From NCBI RefSeq assembly GCF_003574965.1, contig NZ_CP032317.1, positions 1,116,001-1,180,000 of the forward strand: a stretch of DNA of 64,000 bases, in the 5' to 3' direction. Within the stretch, counting starts at the first letter, position 1, and the number at the start of each line of letters is the position of its first letter. Origin of the DNA: Hymenobacter oligotrophus. GTDB lineage: Bacteria; Bacteroidota; Bacteroidia; Cytophagales; Hymenobacteraceae. Of this stretch, positions 36,141-48,972 are shown in pieces. The notes under the pieces were generated by a model, which was given only the letters and a program-made list of their open reading frames with translations, was not told the DNA's origin and did not search any database. A program made the translations under genes and the position numbers.

Positions 36141-36385
36141 TCGGCTTTAAATAAGGCTTTATGCAACCGCGAAGGTAGCGCTTTGAGGCCGCAATTGCTA
36201 CGGAATGCCCCAACTAGGCCCTGGGCTGCCTGAGGGCAACCGCGTGGTACGGGCCAGAGTTCCGCATAATTGCCGTGATGCAATATTCGGGTGCCAGGGT
36301 GCGCCGAAATGCAAAAATCCATTTCGCCTTACCGCACGCAACCTTTTGGCGTGCGCCGTCACTCTTGGCAAAAACATTCCGCTGT

Positions 36386-37252
36386 ATGCTTGGCCGTTCG
36401 ATTTTGTTTGCAACCCTCCTAGGTGCCGCCATGCCCGCGCAGGCCCAGCAACTCGGGGGCCGGGTAGTGGCCGCGGCGTCGGGCCATGGCGTGGCATTTG
36501 CCACTGTTGGCGTAAAAGGCAAAGCCGTGGGCACCACCACCGACGCGGCGGGTCATTTTGCCCTGAAAACCCCAGCCGACATTGCCGACGCCGATTCGGT
36601 TATAATCTCCTGCATTGGCTACCACTCGTGCCGTACCACTGTGCAGGCCTTGCGCAACCGCTCCCAAGCGTGGGAGTTGGCGCCGCTAACCCAGCCGTTG
36701 CCGGAGGTTCGGGTAAAGCACGGCCGCGTACGCCCCGCCACGTTGGGCGGCAAAATGGAAAGCGGCATGGCCCACTGGAGCACCGCCACCCGCGACATTG
36801 GCGCGCTGGCCGACGACGAGCGCGGCTGGGAAGTGGCCACCGTGCTACCGGTGCGGCGCAACAGCTACATCGACGGCTTTCATTTTTACCTCGAGCAAAA
36901 CGAGTTTAAGCTCGTGCGCCTGCGCTTTATGCTTTACGAGGTAGTCGGCGGCAAACCCACCAAACCGCTCCTGACGCAGGACGTGCAGTTTACCGTGCCC
37001 AGCGCCCAAACCGGTTGGGCCAGTGTTGATTTGCGGCCCTACAACGTGCAGCTGCGCAAAGGCCAAACCGTAGCGGCCGGCATACAGTGGCTGCAGGGCG
37101 AAAAACTGACGCCCGCAAGCACCAAGTTTGGCGGGCCGGGCGCGTTTCCGTCGGCCCTACACCGGGCCGTGGTGCGCGACAAAAGCGAGGCCACGTGGCA
37201 CTCCTTTCCCATCAATGCCAGCATGTATTTGGCCGTGCAGGAATACGAGTAG
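36386..37252 (+). CDS. Exported carboxypeptidase-regulatory-like domain protein A
   Basis: The 288-residue product has a signal peptide (MLGRSILFATLLGAAMPAQA), then a CarboxypepD_reg-like beta domain (GRVVAAASGHGVAFATVGVKG ... GTTTDAAGHFAL) to about residue 95. A C-terminal domain of about 180 residues (DERGWEVATVLP, YIDGFHFYLEQNEFKLVRLRF, WASVDLRPYNVQLRKG) is shared with the next gene. It lacks a TonB-dependent barrel. ATG 36386 is chosen over 36275 for the signal peptide. Function unknown; envelope location inferred. Confidence 0.8.
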   Translation: MLGRSILFATLLGAAMPAQAQQLGGRVVAAASGHGVAFATVGVKGKAVGTTTDAAGHFALKTPADIADADSVIISCIGYHSCRTTVQALRNRSQAWELAPLTQPLPEVRVKHGRVRPATLGGKMESGMAHWSTATRDIGALADDERGWEVATVLPVRRNSYIDGFHFYLEQNEFKLVRLRFMLYEVVGGKPTKPLLTQDVQFTVPSAQTGWASVDLRPYNVQLRKGQTVAAGIQWLQGEKLTPASTKFGGPGAFPSALHRAVVRDKSEATWHSFPINASMYLAVQEYE

Positions 37253-37303
37253 GCCCGCCCCACTATTTTTCGGCGCCGCCGCTTAGGGCCGCGCCCCGGC
37301 GGG

Positions 37304-37311
37304 TAACTTTG
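37304..37311 (+). promoter_or_regulatory. Candidate -7 element of gene B
   Basis: TAACTTTG matches TAnnTTTG and lies 70 bp before ATG 37381. The inverted repeat at 37311-37363 begins at its last base, so the transcript would start within a hairpin. Confidence 0.45.
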
Positions 37312-37363
37312 CCCTAGGTGGCGCCTGGCCTGCTTACGTGGCGGGCCAGGCGCCACCTAGGGC
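37311..37363. repeat. Perfect 20-bp inverted repeat with CCTAGG at each outer end
   Basis: Arms 37311-37330 and 37344-37363 are exact reverse complements (GCCCTAGGTGGCGCCTGGCC) separated by 13 bp. There is no T tract after the right arm, so it is not a typical terminator. It lies between the two tandem carboxypeptidase-regulatory-like genes, in the presumed 5' leader of the second. Confidence 0.8.
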
Positions 37364-37380
37364 TTACACCAACCAAGCCA

Positions 37381-38238
37381 ATGAATCTGAGGCTGCTTGC
37401 CACCTTATTCCTAGGTGTTTTACCGCTGATGGCCCAAGGGCAGCAAGAGCCTCTCGAAGGCCAGGTGTTAAACGCGCACACCGGCCTGCCCGTGCCGTTT
37501 GCCACCCTGGGCGTGCCGCGCCGCGGCCTTGGCACGGTGGCCGACGAGCAAGGCCGCTACCTGCTGCGCCTGCCCGCCGATTTTCGCGACACGGTGGTGG
37601 TTACTAGCGTAGGGTTTACCCGCGCGTTGTTACTGCCCGCCCAGCTTGCATCTGGCCAACGCGTGGTGCGGCTCGCGCCGCAAGAGCAAACCCTCGCGAA
37701 CGTAGTAGTGGCGCACCGCCGGGTAAAGCCCGCTACCCTAGGTCGGAAAAGCGCCAAGGGCGACGTGCGGTGGGTGGCAGGCTCGAGCGGCAAGAACACC
37801 GTCGACGATGAATGGGGCTGGGAGCTTGGGGCGGTGCTGCACCCCGCCAAGCCCGCCGTGCTGGAGCAGTTTCACGTGTACCTGCACGACAACAATTACG
37901 AGCTGCTGCGCTTCCGCCTGAACCTGTACGCCTACGAACAAGGCAAACCCGGCAAAGCCCTGCTGCAGCAGGATGTACAGCTGAAAGTATGGCCCAAGCA
38001 AAAAGGGTGGCTTACGGTTGATCTGCGCTCCTACCACATCAACCTTGCGGCACAACCCGTAGCGGCTACCATTCAGTGGCTGCAAAGCGAAACCGCCGAA
38101 CCGCAGAAGAAATACTTTTCGGTACCGGTAAAGCGCGAAGCCAAGCAGGTGATGCTGGAGCGCGAAAACAGCGAAGCCGCCTGGACGATTCATGCCTTGC
38201 AGCCCAGCCTGTACTTTGAGCTGCTGATGGAAGAGTAG
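37381..38238 (+). CDS. Exported carboxypeptidase-regulatory-like domain protein B
   Basis: The 285-residue product is a tandem paralogue of 36386-37252: signal peptide (MNLRLLATLFLGVLPLMAQG), CarboxypepD_reg-like domain (GQVLNAHTGLPVPFATLGVP), then the shared C-terminal domain with EWGWELGAVLHP, VLEQFHVYLHDNNYELLRFRL and WLTVDLRSYHINLAAQPV. Both contain a RVxPATLG(G/R)K linker. The pair likely acts in the envelope; no surface barrel is present. It converges with the PPTase gene with a 2-bp gap. Confidence 0.8.
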   Translation: MNLRLLATLFLGVLPLMAQGQQEPLEGQVLNAHTGLPVPFATLGVPRRGLGTVADEQGRYLLRLPADFRDTVVVTSVGFTRALLLPAQLASGQRVVRLAPQEQTLANVVVAHRRVKPATLGRKSAKGDVRWVAGSSGKNTVDDEWGWELGAVLHPAKPAVLEQFHVYLHDNNYELLRFRLNLYAYEQGKPGKALLQQDVQLKVWPKQKGWLTVDLRSYHINLAAQPVAATIQWLQSETAEPQKKYFSVPVKREAKQVMLERENSEAAWTIHALQPSLYFELLMEE

Positions 38239-38240
38239 CC

Positions 38241-39026
38241 CTACCCCGCTGCTATATCCAGCAAGCTCGCGTCGACATCTACAAATAGCGGCGGATGGTT
38301 TGCCCACGCGGCCGTCTCGTGCGCTACCGCTGCCGCGTAGCCGGGTGCCGCCGCAAACGAATGTACGGCCCAATTGCGCCCCGCAAAGCCGGGCGAAGGC
38401 GGCAAAACCTGCGCACCATCGAGGCTTGGCAGGTGGGGCCAATGTGCGTCGATGCCGGTACCAACGGCCTTCGCCAAGGCTTCTTTGCGCGTCCAGAGTT
38501 TGCCGAATGCCTCGGCAGGCACGTCGGCTTGTTGCAACCAGGCGTATTCGGCCGGCGCAAAGCTGCGTTGGGCCACGGCCCGGCAGTGCGGGTCGTAGTC
38601 CGCGATTTGCTCCACGTCGATGCCAACAGGCCCGGGCGCCAAGGCCACCAGCACGTACTCGCCCGAGTGCGCCACGTTGAAGTGTTGCCCCTCTTGGCTT
38701 TGCTGCAGCATTGGTTTGCCGGCCCTAGGTGCCAGGGCCACGCCCCGCGCTGGCAGGCCCAGGCAATGGGCCAACAGCAGCCGGAGCAGGCCGCGCCCCA
38801 CTACAAACCGGGCTGCATCGGGAGCTTGCCGGTAGCGCTGCGCCCGGGCCCGCTCGTCGGGCGACAGCACTGCCTCCCAGGCGGGCAAGTGCGGGTGCAC
38901 AGCAGCCATCGACGCCCGAAAGACCACCAACCCAACTGGCCAGCCTGGCCCGGGGCGGTACGTTGTGGGCTGCCACACCGGTGGCGGCCAGGTGCCGCAG
39001 CAAACCTGGGGCGCGTGGCTTAGCAC
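38241..39026 (-). CDS. 4'-phosphopantetheinyl transferase (Sfp type)
   Basis: The 261-residue enzyme transfers phosphopantetheine from CoA to carrier-protein Ser. Motifs are GKPMLQQSQEGQHFNVAHSG (P1/P2 region), GIDVEQI with Mg-binding acids, and FGKLWTRKEALAKAVGTGI. Sfp-type length suits activation of peptide-synthetase carrier domains. The likely start is GTG 39026, overlapping the last 7 bp of the adjacent synthetase gene, so translation is coupled and the carrier domain of that protein is the obvious target. Confidence 0.92.
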   Translation of the reverse strand: MLSHAPQVCCGTWPPPVWQPTTYRPGPGWPVGLVVFRASMAAVHPHLPAWEAVLSPDERARAQRYRQAPDAARFVVGRGLLRLLLAHCLGLPARGVALAPRAGKPMLQQSQEGQHFNVAHSGEYVLVALAPGPVGIDVEQIADYDPHCRAVAQRSFAPAEYAWLQQADVPAEAFGKLWTRKEALAKAVGTGIDAHWPHLPSLDGAQVLPPSPGFAGRNWAVHSFAAAPGYAAAVAHETAAWANHPPLFVDVDASLLDIAAG

Positions 39027-41620
39027 AGCACGGCCTCGGCGGGTGCAGGCACGGCAGCCAGTTGCCGCTTGCCCAGGGCCAGGTCCATCACTTTGGCAAA
39101 CTCCAAGTGATTAGGCGGTAACAACATACCCTCGTGGTCGCCGCTTACCTCGTGCATGCGCACGCCGCGGCGGGAATACGGTTGCCAGCCGTAGTATCTG
39201 GGCTCGAACACCACATGAATGCGGTTTCGGGCCTTAATCACGTCGATTACGCCATCGTAAGGCTTGGGCTGGTACCGATCCCAGGCCTGGTCGTTCTGGG
39301 CCCAAATAGCATGAAAACGCTCAACCTCCGTTTCGGGGTGGTTGCTGGGCAATTGCCCTGCCACTCGCTGCATCAGCCACTTGGCGTAGGCGCCGTAATG
39401 CTGGCACGCAGCCAACGGGTAGCGCCAAAAGGAGCGTGCTACCCAGCGCAACCGGTGCCACTGGCGCTCCAAGCGGGCCCAGAAAGGCGGCGGCGCTAGC
39501 GTTTTGGGCGCATCGGCCTCGCAGTCGATAACGGCCAGCAGCACCACTTCTTTGCCCAAAGCGCGCAATTGGTGAGCCATTTCGAACGCTACCATGCCGC
39601 CAAACGAGTACCCTGCCAAGGCGTATGGGCCAGTGGGGTTGTGCTCGAGCAACTCGGCCACGTAGGCCGTAGCCATTTCCTCAATGGTGTCGGGTGGGCT
39701 AGTTACGCCGTCGAGCCCAATCGCCTGCAGGCCATACACCGGCTGATCGGGGGGCATAGCTAGCGCGAAGTGCCGGAAAATCACCACGTTCAGGCCCATG
39801 CCGTGCACCACGTACAGCGGGGGCTTATCCCCATGGGGCTGCAGCGGCACCAAGGAGCGCCAAGGGCCCGCGTGGGCCTGGGCATCGAGGACGCGGGCCA
39901 ACTGGCGGGGCGTGGGAGCCTCGAACAAGGCCGATAGCGGCAGCCGGTACCCGGTTGCAGTTTCCACTTGCACCATGGCTTTCAGGGCCAGCAGGGAGTT
40001 GCCACCTAAATCGAAAAAGTTGTCATCGAGGGCCACAGCGGGCAACCGCAGCACGTGCGCCCACGCCTGGCAGATGGCTATTTCGCTGGCGCTGCCCACC
40101 ACCTGCTGGGGCACCTGCGCGGGTTGGGAAGCCTCGGGTTTGGGCAGGGCCTTTCGGTTTACTTTGCCGCTCGAGGTGGTGGGCAACTGCGGCAACCAAA
40201 CGTACGCGGCGGGATGCATAAAATCGGGCAGGTGTTGCTTGAGCGCAGCGCGCACGGCGGCCAACGCGGGTGGCGCCTTGGCTTCGGCGGGCACCAGGTA
40301 GGCCACCAGCTGCTTTTGGCCTGGCTCCTCTTCCAAGGCTACCACTACGGCCTGGCTAATGCCCGGCACTTGGCTTAGCCGCGCTTCTATTTCCCCTACC
40401 TCCACGCGGTTGCCCCTGATTTTTACTTGCCCGTCGGTACGCCCTAGGTATTCCAGGTTGCCGTCGGGCAGGCAGCGCACTAGGTCGCCGCTGCGGTAGC
40501 GGCGCTGGCCAGGGGCGCCCCCAAATTTGGCGGCCGTCAGTTCGGGGTCGTTCAGGTAGCCATCGGCTACGCCGGCCCCGCCAATGTACAGCTCGCCCAC
40601 CGTGCCGGGCGGCACCGGCTGGCCCTCCTCGTCGAGAATGTCGAAGGTTACGTTATCGATGGCGCGGCCAATGGGCGGCAACCGCGGCCACTGAGCGGGC
40701 GGCCCTTGCAGTTGGTAGCACGAGGCCGAAATGCTGGTTTCGGTGGGGCCGTATTGGTTGTAGAAGTCGCAGCCGGGCAAGGCGTTAAAAAACCGCTCGA
40801 TTTGAGGAGTGATTTTTAATTGCTCACCCCCGGTTAATACTTCGTGCAGGCAAGTCGGGTAAAACTGCTCGGCCTCGGCCGCTTCGGCCAGGTACTGCAA
40901 GACCACGCAAGGCATATCGGCGCGCCGGATGCAGGCCTGCTCCAAAAAACGAAGCAGCCGCGGGGGGTCGAGGCGCAACTCATCGTCGACGAGCACGAGC
41001 GTGCCAGCGGTATGGAAGGCGAGAAAAATCTCTTGTACCGAGGCATCGAACGTGAGGGGCGCAAAACACAGCACCGCACTGCCTCGCTGCACCTTGGTGT
41101 TGCGCGCCTGCCACAAAATCAGGTTTACTACGCCGGCGTGGCCCACGCATACGCCTTTGGGCTTGCCCGTAGAGCCCGAAGTATATATCACATAGGCCCA
41201 ATGGGTGGCGGGCACAATGGGCGCCGCATTCGGCACAGCTTCTGAATCTGCATCTACGCATGCAAGCCCGAGCGACGCAAAAAAGGGGGCGTCTTGCCCG
41301 AGGGCAACGCAGGCCTGCACTTGCGTGTCGGCAATCATTTGCTGCAACCGCTGGGTGGGGTAGCCCGGGTCGAGGGGCAAATACGCCTTGCCCGCTTTCA
41401 GGATGGCCAGCATGCCCACAATGCTTTTCAGGCTGCGCCGGGTACTCAGGCCGATGAAAACGTCATCGGGGTACAAGCGAACAATGCTGCGGGCCAACGC
41501 GTCGGCCTGCTCGTTGAGTTCGTGGTAGGTTAACGCTTGGTTTCCGAACCGCACGGCGCACTCGTCCGGAAACGCCTGCGCTTGTTGTTCGAATAAGTTA
41601 TGGATCAACATAAATGGCAA
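39020..41620 (-). CDS. Single-module nonribosomal peptide synthetase, A-T-TE
   Basis: The 866-residue enzyme has an adenylation domain (about 1-495), a carrier domain (about 510-580, Ser542 in DNFFDLGGNSLLAL) and a thioesterase (about 600-860, GYSFGG with Ser672, late His in SGDHEG). There is no condensation, epimerisation or oxidase domain. Core motifs include YTSGSTGKPKG, YGPTETS, YRSGDL and SSGKVNRKAL (Lys486). Aligning to GrsA by eye, the specificity code reads D192 A193 Q196 D235 L262 G264 Q289 I297 S298 K486, near published Gln/Glu codes; the intact D192 argues for an alpha-amino acid. It pairs with the PPTase gene. The product is unknown. Start 41620 or the ATG three codons later. Confidence 0.93.
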   Translation of the reverse strand: MPFMLIHNLFEQQAQAFPDECAVRFGNQALTYHELNEQADALARSIVRLYPDDVFIGLSTRRSLKSIVGMLAILKAGKAYLPLDPGYPTQRLQQMIADTQVQACVALGQDAPFFASLGLACVDADSEAVPNAAPIVPATHWAYVIYTSGSTGKPKGVCVGHAGVVNLILWQARNTKVQRGSAVLCFAPLTFDASVQEIFLAFHTAGTLVLVDDELRLDPPRLLRFLEQACIRRADMPCVVLQYLAEAAEAEQFYPTCLHEVLTGGEQLKITPQIERFFNALPGCDFYNQYGPTETSISASCYQLQGPPAQWPRLPPIGRAIDNVTFDILDEEGQPVPPGTVGELYIGGAGVADGYLNDPELTAAKFGGAPGQRRYRSGDLVRCLPDGNLEYLGRTDGQVKIRGNRVEVGEIEARLSQVPGISQAVVVALEEEPGQKQLVAYLVPAEAKAPPALAAVRAALKQHLPDFMHPAAYVWLPQLPTTSSGKVNRKALPKPEASQPAQVPQQVVGSASEIAICQAWAHVLRLPAVALDDNFFDLGGNSLLALKAMVQVETATGYRLPLSALFEAPTPRQLARVLDAQAHAGPWRSLVPLQPHGDKPPLYVVHGMGLNVVIFRHFALAMPPDQPVYGLQAIGLDGVTSPPDTIEEMATAYVAELLEHNPTGPYALAGYSFGGMVAFEMAHQLRALGKEVVLLAVIDCEADAPKTLAPPPFWARLERQWHRLRWVARSFWRYPLAACQHYGAYAKWLMQRVAGQLPSNHPETEVERFHAIWAQNDQAWDRYQPKPYDGVIDVIKARNRIHVVFEPRYYGWQPYSRRGVRMHEVSGDHEGMLLPPNHLEFAKVMDLALGKRQLAAVPAPAEAVLC

Positions 41621-41992
41621 AAACCACCCAATGAAAGTCCCCCTCAGGGATTAAGTGAGTTTGGGTTTTAAGATATATACCTCTTGCTTTTAAACAATGT
41701 TCTTCTTGGTTAAATCTACCATAAAATTATACTCTAGGTGCCGGGGCTGCTGGCAACTGCCAGGAGGTTGCGCGGCTGTGTTAGCCCGCAGAGGGCGCGG
41801 AGGTTGGCGCAGAAGGCGCTGAGCACTTGCGCCCGCTGCGTTTCTTTGGCAGTTGGTAACGTTGTTCGGCGCCATCGGTGGGCCTAGGTGCACCGCCGCT
41901 GCGGGTGCAGCTGCCACCTAGGGATGCCGCCGCCGTGGCCCGGCCGATTGCCAATGCTGGCCAACCCTGCCTTTTCCGCGTATCTTTAGCCT
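41621..41992. other. Divergent intergenic region with inverted CCTAGG pair
   Basis: This 372-bp spacer has no gene. It has an AT-rich synthetase promoter side (41660-41740), a degenerate CGCAGAGGGCGC-type repeat (41786-41825) and two CCTAGG copies (41883, 41917) embedded in CCTAGGTGCA ... GCCACCTAGG, i.e. facing each other across 28 bp. A TATCTTTA word at 41981-41988 sits directly before the Uma2 ATG. Confidence 0.5.
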
Positions 41993-42595
41993 ATGCGTAT
42001 TTCCTTGGAACATGGTGGCATTCTGCTGGGCGGCTCCTACCTGGGCCGCATGACCGACGACGAGTTCTTCGACTTCTGTCAGCAGCACCCCGACCTGCGC
42101 ATCGAGCGCACCGCCCACCACGAAATTTTGCTTATGTCGCCCACCGGCAGCCGCTCCGGCAAACGCAACGCCCGCCTGAATGGGCAGCTTTATTCCTGGT
42201 TTATCCAACATGCCGAGCTCGGTGAAATATTCGACTCGAACACGGGCTTCACCCTGCCCGATACGTCCATCCTCTCGCCCGATGCTTCCTGGGTATCGGC
42301 CGCCAAGTGGAACGCCCTCACGCCGGGGCAACAGGACAAGTTTGCGCCCGTGTGCCCGGAGTTTGTAGTGGAGCTGAAGTCGAAAACGGACGTGCTGAAA
42401 GATCTGCAAGCCAAAATGCACGACTGGCTGCGCAACGGCGCCCAACTGGCCTGGCTGCTCGACCCCGACACGGAAACGGCCTATATCTACCGCCCCGGCC
42501 AGCCCGCGCCCGAAACCGTGCAGGGCTTCGATAACGAGTTGTCCGGCGAGGCGGTGCTGCCCGGCTTCCGGCTGCGGCTGGCGGAGCTGCGGTAG
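41993..42595 (+). CDS. Uma2 family (DUF820) restriction-endonuclease-like protein
   Basis: The 200-residue protein belongs to the PD-(D/E)XK-fold Uma2 family. DTSILSPDASWVSAAKW and VCPEFVVELKSKTDVLKDLQAKMHDWLRNGAQLAWLLDP give the Asp, Glu-x-Lys and the helix expected of the family; RSGKRNARLNGQLYSWF is also typical. Uma2 proteins are abundant in Bacteroidota and cyanobacteria; their biological role is not settled. A possible promoter word ends 4 bp before the ATG, so the mRNA may be leaderless. Confidence 0.9.
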   Translation: MRISLEHGGILLGGSYLGRMTDDEFFDFCQQHPDLRIERTAHHEILLMSPTGSRSGKRNARLNGQLYSWFIQHAELGEIFDSNTGFTLPDTSILSPDASWVSAAKWNALTPGQQDKFAPVCPEFVVELKSKTDVLKDLQAKMHDWLRNGAQLAWLLDPDTETAYIYRPGQPAPETVQGFDNELSGEAVLPGFRLRLAELR

Positions 42596-48144: not shown

Positions 48145-48185
48145 TAGTAAACATAAATCTTGTACGAGACGGGCCTGCCCCACGC

Positions 48186-48382
48186 TGGCGCGAGTTTAGC
48201 GCAGCGTAACTCGTGACCAGCCATGAGGTGGAGGCTGTGCCTCCACTGCCGCCAACAGCGGCAAACCGGCCACGCGTCGCTCGGATAACTTGCTAATCCG
48301 GGCGGCGTTGGTCGTTCTGACGGGGGAGGCACAGCCTCCCGGCAAGGCTGGTCACGAGTTACGCTGCGCTAAACTCGCGCCA
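48186..48382. repeat. Large nested inverted repeat (REP/BIME-like) upstream of the RAYT gene
   Basis: Outer arms 48186-48222 and 48346-48382 are perfect 37-bp reverse complements. Inner arms 48230-48244 and 48325-48339 (GGAGGCTGTGCCTCC and its complement) are also perfect, and each inner arm is itself a small hairpin. The structure ends 41 bp before the transposase-like gene at 48424 and is the presumed substrate of that protein. Confidence 0.85.
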
Positions 48383-48423
48383 GGCAGAGCCAGGCAAAGC
48401 CGGCAAACGGCTACCTTATCGGT

Positions 48424-48972
48424 ATGAGTGAGAAGTATAAGATTCAGGATTCGCGGCAGCTCTATTTTGTTTCCTTCGCCACCGTCAACTGGATTGACGT
48501 ATTTACGCGGCGGCTTTACAACGACCTCTTCGTGGACGGCCTGCGCTATTGCCAGCAGCACAAAGGATTGGAAGTGTACGCCTGGTGCCTGATGACCAAC
48601 CACGCCCACCTCATCATTAGCAGCGAACAGGACAACCTCTCGGCCATCCTGCGCGACCTGAAACGCCACACCGCCAAAACCCTGCTGCAAGCTATTCAAG
48701 AAAACCAGCAGGAAAGCCGCCGCGAGTGGATGCTGTGGATGTTCCGACGCGCCGGGCAGCGCAATACCCACAACGAGCACTACCAGTTCTGGCAGCAGAA
48801 CAACCACCCCATCGAGCTTTATTCCAACGAGCTGCGCCGCCAGCGGCTGGAGTACCTGCACCGCAACCCCGTATCGGCTGGTTTTGTAGATGCGCCCGAA
48901 GACTTTCAATATAGCAGCGCCCGCAATTACGCCGGTCGGCCGGGGTTGCTGGATGTGTTACTAATTGGCTAA
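48424..48972 (+). CDS. REP-associated tyrosine transposase (RAYT, Y1 HUH family)
   Basis: The 182-residue protein of the IS200/IS605-related Y1 superfamily has the HUH motif in CLMTNHAHLIIS (metal-binding His pair) and the C-terminal HRNPVSAGFVDAPEDFQYSSARNYAG, where one of the Tyr residues should be the nucleophile. Length fits single-domain RAYTs, which process REP palindromes and are usually not mobile by themselves. A 197-bp nested palindrome lies immediately upstream, and a deleted copy of the element lies at 51895-52016. Confidence 0.92.
   Translation: MSEKYKIQDSRQLYFVSFATVNWIDVFTRRLYNDLFVDGLRYCQQHKGLEVYAWCLMTNHAHLIISSEQDNLSAILRDLKRHTAKTLLQAIQENQQESRREWMLWMFRRAGQRNTHNEHYQFWQQNNHPIELYSNELRRQRLEYLHRNPVSAGFVDAPEDFQYSSARNYAGRPGLLDVLLIG

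Follow-up and report, generated by a model that had tools for sequence, protein, structure and literature searches.

Organisation of the locus

Within the window (the whole stretch of 64,000 nucleotides of Hymenobacter oligotrophus contig NZ_CP032317.1 that was analysed), two overlapping genes on the reverse strand encode a single-module nonribosomal peptide synthetase (NRPS) with adenylation (A), thiolation (T) and thioesterase (TE) domains and a phosphopantetheinyl transferase (PPTase). The features are listed by window position, with residue numbers counted along the synthetase.

38232..41965, no strand: extent of the two-gene cassette (blastn of window 34-50 kb against L076-L078)
38241..39026, reverse strand: Sfp-type phosphopantetheinyl transferase, 261 aa, GTG start (ORF, Pfam)
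39020..41611, reverse strand: A-T-TE single-module NRPS gene, 863 aa from its likely start (ORF and translation, Pfam, AlphaFold2/Foldseek)
39074..39844, reverse strand: type I thioesterase domain, residues 590-846, triad Ser669/Asp696/His826 (Pfam, alignment)
39872..40099, reverse strand: thiolation domain, residues 505-580, with Ser539 at 39995-39997 (Pfam, alignment)
40142..41605, reverse strand: adenylation domain, residues 3-490 (Pfam, tree, VIA-align)
40163-40165, reverse strand: code residue K483 (GrsA-anchored MAFFT)
40727..41047, reverse strand: nine of the ten code residues, D189, A190, Q193, D232, L259, G261, Q286, I294 and S295 (GrsA-anchored MAFFT)

The mechanical ORF of the synthetase spans 39020-41620 on the reverse strand from a TTG start, and the ATG at 41611, which gives 863 aa, is the likely start. 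Pfam placed AMP-binding at residues 7-353 (E-value 2.8e-69 for the A domain), AMP-binding_C at 407-483, PP-binding at 513-574 and Thioesterase at 598-699, with a generic alpha/beta hydrolase match overlying the TE. No condensation (C) or oxidase (Ox) domain was detected in the synthetase by Pfam, and the single chain of A, T and TE without C is thus an NRPS-like stand-alone A-T-TE module, as the earlier note had proposed. The catalytic residues of all three domains are kept in alignments, namely K483 (position 517), Ser539 and S669/D696/H826, the TE triad having been assigned by alignment with 24 relatives. An AlphaFold2 model of the whole synthetase had a mean pLDDT of 82 and a pTM of 0.53; its top Foldseek matches were the EntF, AB3403 and SrfA-C terminal modules, and VIA-align returned Z values of ~50 against the LgrA, TycA and GrsB1-Pro A domains. 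The comparison of the TE covered TEs of Bacteroidota C-A-T-TE modules and PDB entries.

The PPTase ORF overlaps the synthetase stop by 7 bp, and its product matches ACPS and AASDHPPT_N in Pfam, the domains of an Sfp-type enzyme of about 230-260 aa; the ORF coordinates and Pfam thereby confirm the coupling described before. One further ACPS-family protein is encoded in the host genome (G000), at C1:4066805, and is presumably the housekeeping PPTase.

The same pair in a second genus, and empty sites in relatives

A full-length homologue of the synthetase (54-55% identity over residues 2-847), also a stand-alone frame, was found in a genome of another genus, G071, the sole carrier among 204 family genomes, and there too a PPTase gene lies directly downstream. 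No close match was found in seven other genomes of the host's genus, no further stand-alone homologue in the remaining genomes of the genus or in family f11 at the strict E-value thresholds used, and no second match at E <= 1e-60 within the host genome itself, whose content was assessed through searches. A contig scan of the genome collection matched only three distant NRPSs. Across over a thousand Bacteroidota genomes, searched at strict thresholds and with several of the sets being samples, two genomes carrying the two-gene unit were found.

At the host locus, the congeners G007, G004 and G003 lack the cassette and have another CarbopepD_reg paralogue there. The flanks of G007 and G004 align up to 38231 and from 43178, with about 1.2 kb between, and G003 also retains the Uma2 gene (41966-42593), which together delimit the gained piece to about 38232-41965, the two genes. 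In G071 the pair is flanked on one side by a TPR operon and on the other by an alpha-2-macroglobulin gene that is common in the genus, and genomes G029 and G128 have both flanks but lack the pair. The two loci have no neighbour gene in common, and the gene content, order and strand of the unit are thus the same in two genera although its sites are unrelated. Because relatives of both carriers keep the flanking genes but lack the pair, the unit is a two-gene cassette rather than what is left of a bigger cluster at the site, and its recurrence as the same two genes at two unrelated sites in two genomes suggests that it is self-sufficient, seemingly needing no further dedicated gene. No downstream oxidase, exporter or resistance gene marking a product was found at the locus. 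A functional link to alpha-2-macroglobulin was considered and rejected, as that gene is present in 16 of 16 genomes searched of G071's genus and the cassette merely lies beside it.

Several further elements were observed in the host window. A Uma2-family putative endonuclease gene (41993-42592) lies just upstream of the cassette, in the same place in G003 and with no alignment in G007 or G004. Tandem CarbopepD_reg-domain paralogues occupy 36275-38235, and the congener loci (L076-L078) have a third copy at the cassette's place. Additionally, within 48173-48972, a REP-type transposase ORF (Y1-like by motif recognition; 48424-48972) is preceded by a 53-nt inverted repeat (48173-48225 / 48343-48395) that is 89% complementary.

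Specificity code of the A domain

The ten-residue code was computed from a GrsA-anchored MAFFT alignment in which the GrsA letters were verified against PDB 1AMU (positions 235 to 517 reading DAWTIAAICK). The result, DAQDLGQISK, is identical to the code that had been read by eye, and the G071 homologue has DAQDLGQITK, nine of ten residues the same. Given the E-value of the A domain, the intact catalytic residues and the same pair with a 9/10 code in another genus, the synthetase is far from a chance finding.

In A domains that take amino acids, Asp235 binds the alpha-amino group of the substrate, and keto-acid A domains lack it. D189 aligns with Asp235 in the GrsA frame, which argues against a pocket of the aryl/keto-acid type and points to an alpha-amino acid substrate; this agrees with the earlier view that the aryl-pyruvate quinone/furanone synthetases do not fit. 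D278 is also found in cationic codes such as that for Arg, and together with G301 it suits cationic side chains too.

Seven of the ten positions equal DAQDLGVVDK, the common part being DAQDLG plus K517 and the differences falling at 322, 330 and 331 (QIS versus VVD). DAQDLGVVDK is given as the code for both Glu and Gln (PMC12283262). In the surfactin Glu domain, a change at position 239 shifts specificity towards Gln (PMC11355689), and since the cassette A domain has no Lys at 239, Gln is a better fit than Glu. Judging from the code, L-Gln is the most likely candidate for the amino acid loaded by the A domain. DAQDLGQISK as a full code was not found in the literature, the string DAQDLG appeared in a single paper only within the NRPS literature, and no study of such an NRPS from Hymenobacter turned up.

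Lineage of the A domain and origin of the pocket

An NRPS-PKS hybrid made up of an ~2230-aa A-T-KS-AT-T-aminotransferase (AMT) protein and an ~1340-aa C-A-T-TE protein, also with a PPTase in the examined example, occurs in about 25 genomes of G071's genus and in others of families f11 and f61; it is apparently widespread and uncharacterised in Bacteroidota. Its second A domain has codes such as DILQLGMIWK, which we take to be Gly-like. In a maximum likelihood tree, the A domains of G000 and G071 pair (100/95) inside the clade of the hybrid's first A domains (A1; 100/100), and the cassette A domain thus belongs to the A1 lineage. The hybrid A1 domains mostly carry the code DVQFMAQVVK, called Pro-like here since V236 and Q239 are frequent in Pro domains (PMC12283262).

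As the cassette pair nests within the hybrid-A1 clade, its pocket was probably retuned from a Pro-like ancestor. Q239 and Q322 were probably inherited from it and, if so, do not count as separate support for Gln. Compared with the consensus of the hybrid A1 domains there are four changes within 236-301 (A236, D278, L299 and G301), all derived, common to both cassettes and each matching the Gln/Glu code. The Gln reading of the earlier note is plausible, but weaker than it first seemed owing to the two inherited glutamines. Over the 34-residue pocket, G000 and G071 are identical at 28 of 34 positions versus 22 of 34 against a hybrid A1; over the whole A domain, for comparison, they are 59% identical to each other and 49-55% identical to the hybrid A1 domains.

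The earlier note had also suggested looking for a conserved larger cluster in relatives. An NRPS-PKS cluster with a homologous A domain does exist there, but it has a Pro-like code and different genes and is absent around either carrier; the cassette locus holds A-T-TE and PPTase only, with neither the KS-AT-AMT part nor the C-A modules of the hybrid. The cassette PPTase is nearest to the hybrid-associated PPTases (28-43% identity to those of hybrid clusters over 180-250 residues) and to that of G071, and resembles the C1:4066805 protein far less.

In the T domain of G000, the left half is closer to hybrid T1 (+24.7 bits) and the right half to the terminal T (-48.8); the optimal breakpoint follows residue 545, and none of 5000 shuffles did as well. 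The left half of the G071 T domain is ambiguous (+1.3 bits, 32 of 5000 shuffles). The cassette may have arisen by recombination of the hybrid ends, and mere loss of a C domain would explain it just as well, as a genus of family f61 (g195) has C-A-T-TE-sized proteins in which the A domain, likewise of the Pro-like lineage (DVQYMAQVVK), is followed by T-TE. We did not adopt a fresh recombination within T as the settled origin, since it is supported in G000, weak in G071 and matched by C-domain loss. A tree of the TE against the hybrid TEs was given no weight because of poor rooting and a long outgroup branch.

Comparison with known systems

The indigoidine synthetases (IndC, BpsA and IdgS; A-Ox-T-TE) are alike in being single modules with a TE and a PPTase as sole partner, and theirs is a Gln-activating system with TE-released cyclic Gln. 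They differ in having an FMN Ox domain embedded in A, whereas the cassette A domain is contiguous over 7-483 without a nitroreductase-type domain by Pfam, and the cassette would be expected to give a blue pigment only with the help of an oxidase in trans. Arthrobacter QL17 MWM45_RS16760 is by description similar in architecture (A-PCP-TE) and predicted Gln specificity, but is a blue-pigment enzyme with an additional inserted region relative to BpsA (PMC13405713); because of this insertion it may carry an Ox domain and so not be Ox-free. The keto-acid A-T-TE synthetases (atromentin/AtrA, ralfuranone/RalA and aspulvinone type) have the same domain order, and D235 sets the cassette enzyme apart from them. 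Similar to the cassette in A lineage, TE type and associated PPTase, the Bacteroidota hybrid differs in its Pro-like code and in its KS, AT, AMT and C domains. Single-module A-T-TE enzymes are already known (PMC10720950), including the uncharacterised Pseudomonas NRPS 3 and NRPS 5, stand-alone and without known product, which by description differ in their Thr-predicted or unpredicted specificity and in phylum (PMC8719888). The single modules known to use Gln carry an Ox domain; a Gln-type A-T-TE that lacks Ox and is paired with its own PPTase would be a new form within an established type.

Proposed reaction and alternatives

Our preferred reading, to which we give a probability of roughly 0.38, is that the self-contained two-gene cassette loads L-Gln, which then leaves the TE in cyclised form, as (S)-3-aminopiperidine-2,6-dione. 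The PPTase would convert the apo-T domain to holo-T, and the A domain would use ATP to activate a single alpha-amino acid (L-Gln being the most likely) and load it onto Ser539. Without a condensation domain, the aminoacyl group would move to Ser669 of the TE, where attack of the side-chain amide nitrogen on the acyl-enzyme would release the product. We infer the Gln substrate, the cyclising release and the product in part by analogy: Ox-dead IdgS turns L-Gln into (S)-3-aminopiperidine-2,6-dione, and PadE-TE performs a similar Gln cyclisation (PMC10989907). More doubtful is the fuller proposal that the cassette is a natural oxidase-free two-gene 3-aminoglutarimide synthase, with a Pro-type A domain retuned to Gln and the cyclic imide as the end product, with no indigoidine.

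The same machine might use another amino acid, cationic or polar (Arg, Orn, Lys, citrulline or His), with the TE releasing a lactam, such as cyclo-ornithine (3-aminopiperidin-2-one), or a similar product. D278 and G301 make a deep acidic pocket, D or E at 278 also occurs in Arg and Orn codes (DVADVGAIDK and DVGEIGSIDK), Q239 is inherited from the Pro-like ancestor, and the model aligns well with the A domain of poly-ornithine synthetase, though it does so with all A domains. Nevertheless, A236, L299 and G301 with D278 match the Gln/Glu code better than the cationic codes known to us, and we regard this alternative as unlikely, if a serious one. Somewhat less probable is that the TE uses an outside nucleophile (alcohol, amine, lipid or sugar) as acceptor of the amino acid. 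The single-module A-T-C enzyme AneB transfers an amino acid to an alcohol, giving an L-Pro ester (PMC10720950), and the Gly-code A-T-TEs of other Bacteroidia lie among glycosyltransferase genes, suggesting transfer there; the cassette, however, has no acceptor-making or glycosyltransferase gene, its two loci share no neighbour, and the glycosyltransferase-linked enzymes have A domains of another lineage in the tree.

Homodimerisation, also raised in the earlier note, would have the TE couple two aminoacyl units into a diketopiperazine or a linear or cyclic dimer, much as the A-T-TE quinone/furanone synthetases dimerise two tethered substrates (PMC10720950). Those enzymes take alpha-keto acids, against the alpha-amino acid indicated here by D235, and a Gln thioester has an intramolecular alternative, which makes dimerisation improbable. 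That the gene is a largely or wholly inactive relic of the larger hybrid NRPS-PKS or of a C-A-T-TE module would accord with the position of its A domain in the hybrid-A1 clade, the chimera-like T domain in G000 and the existence of longer proteins with an A-T-TE of the same lineage, but every catalytic residue is intact, and two genera whose A domains are 59% identical have retained the A-T-TE and PPTase pair with an almost unchanged new code; we consider a relic very improbable.

Ox-dead IdgS had to be engineered and was not very stable (PMC10989907). If the Gln reading is true, the cassette would be a natural way of making (S)-3-aminopiperidine-2,6-dione, which is valued as a building block, in enantiopure form and without an oxidase, and would raise the question of the bacterium's use for this compound. 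The cassette appears to be a natural NRPS lineage cut to two genes with a new pocket, useful for tests of A-domain specificity change.

Other hybrid and A-T-TE genes in Bacteroidota

Hybrid loci were collected as L042-L048 (family genus g4), L049-L065 and L080-L087, often with a PPTase alongside; if their codes hold, the product would be a beta-amino-acid-containing Pro/Gly compound. Stand-alone A-T-TE genes with Gly-like codes (DIVQFGMIYK, DILQLGMVWK) adjoin glycosyltransferase and polysaccharide-export-like genes, and possibly serve glycine decoration of polysaccharide:

L090:7979-10609: Gly-code stand-alone A-T-TE
L091:7788-10412: Gly-code stand-alone A-T-TE
L092:7438-10065: Gly-code stand-alone A-T-TE
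L093:8331-10967: Gly-code stand-alone A-T-TE
L094:1580-4237: Gly-code stand-alone A-T-TE

In four genomes, all of genus g208, these Gly-code genes additionally have a bacterial alpha-2-macroglobulin gene as neighbour. Genome G804 has a stand-alone A-T-TE (L089:8297-10897, code DAQFIGVVWK) between AraC-type regulator and RmuC genes, with its A domain in the hybrid-A1 clade and no adjoining PPTase seen. The g195 frames mentioned above (L117-L120) are 1357-1382 aa, C-A-T-TE sized by length, and their A-T-TE part is 44-46% identical to the window synthetase, in genomes with dozens of NRPS candidates.
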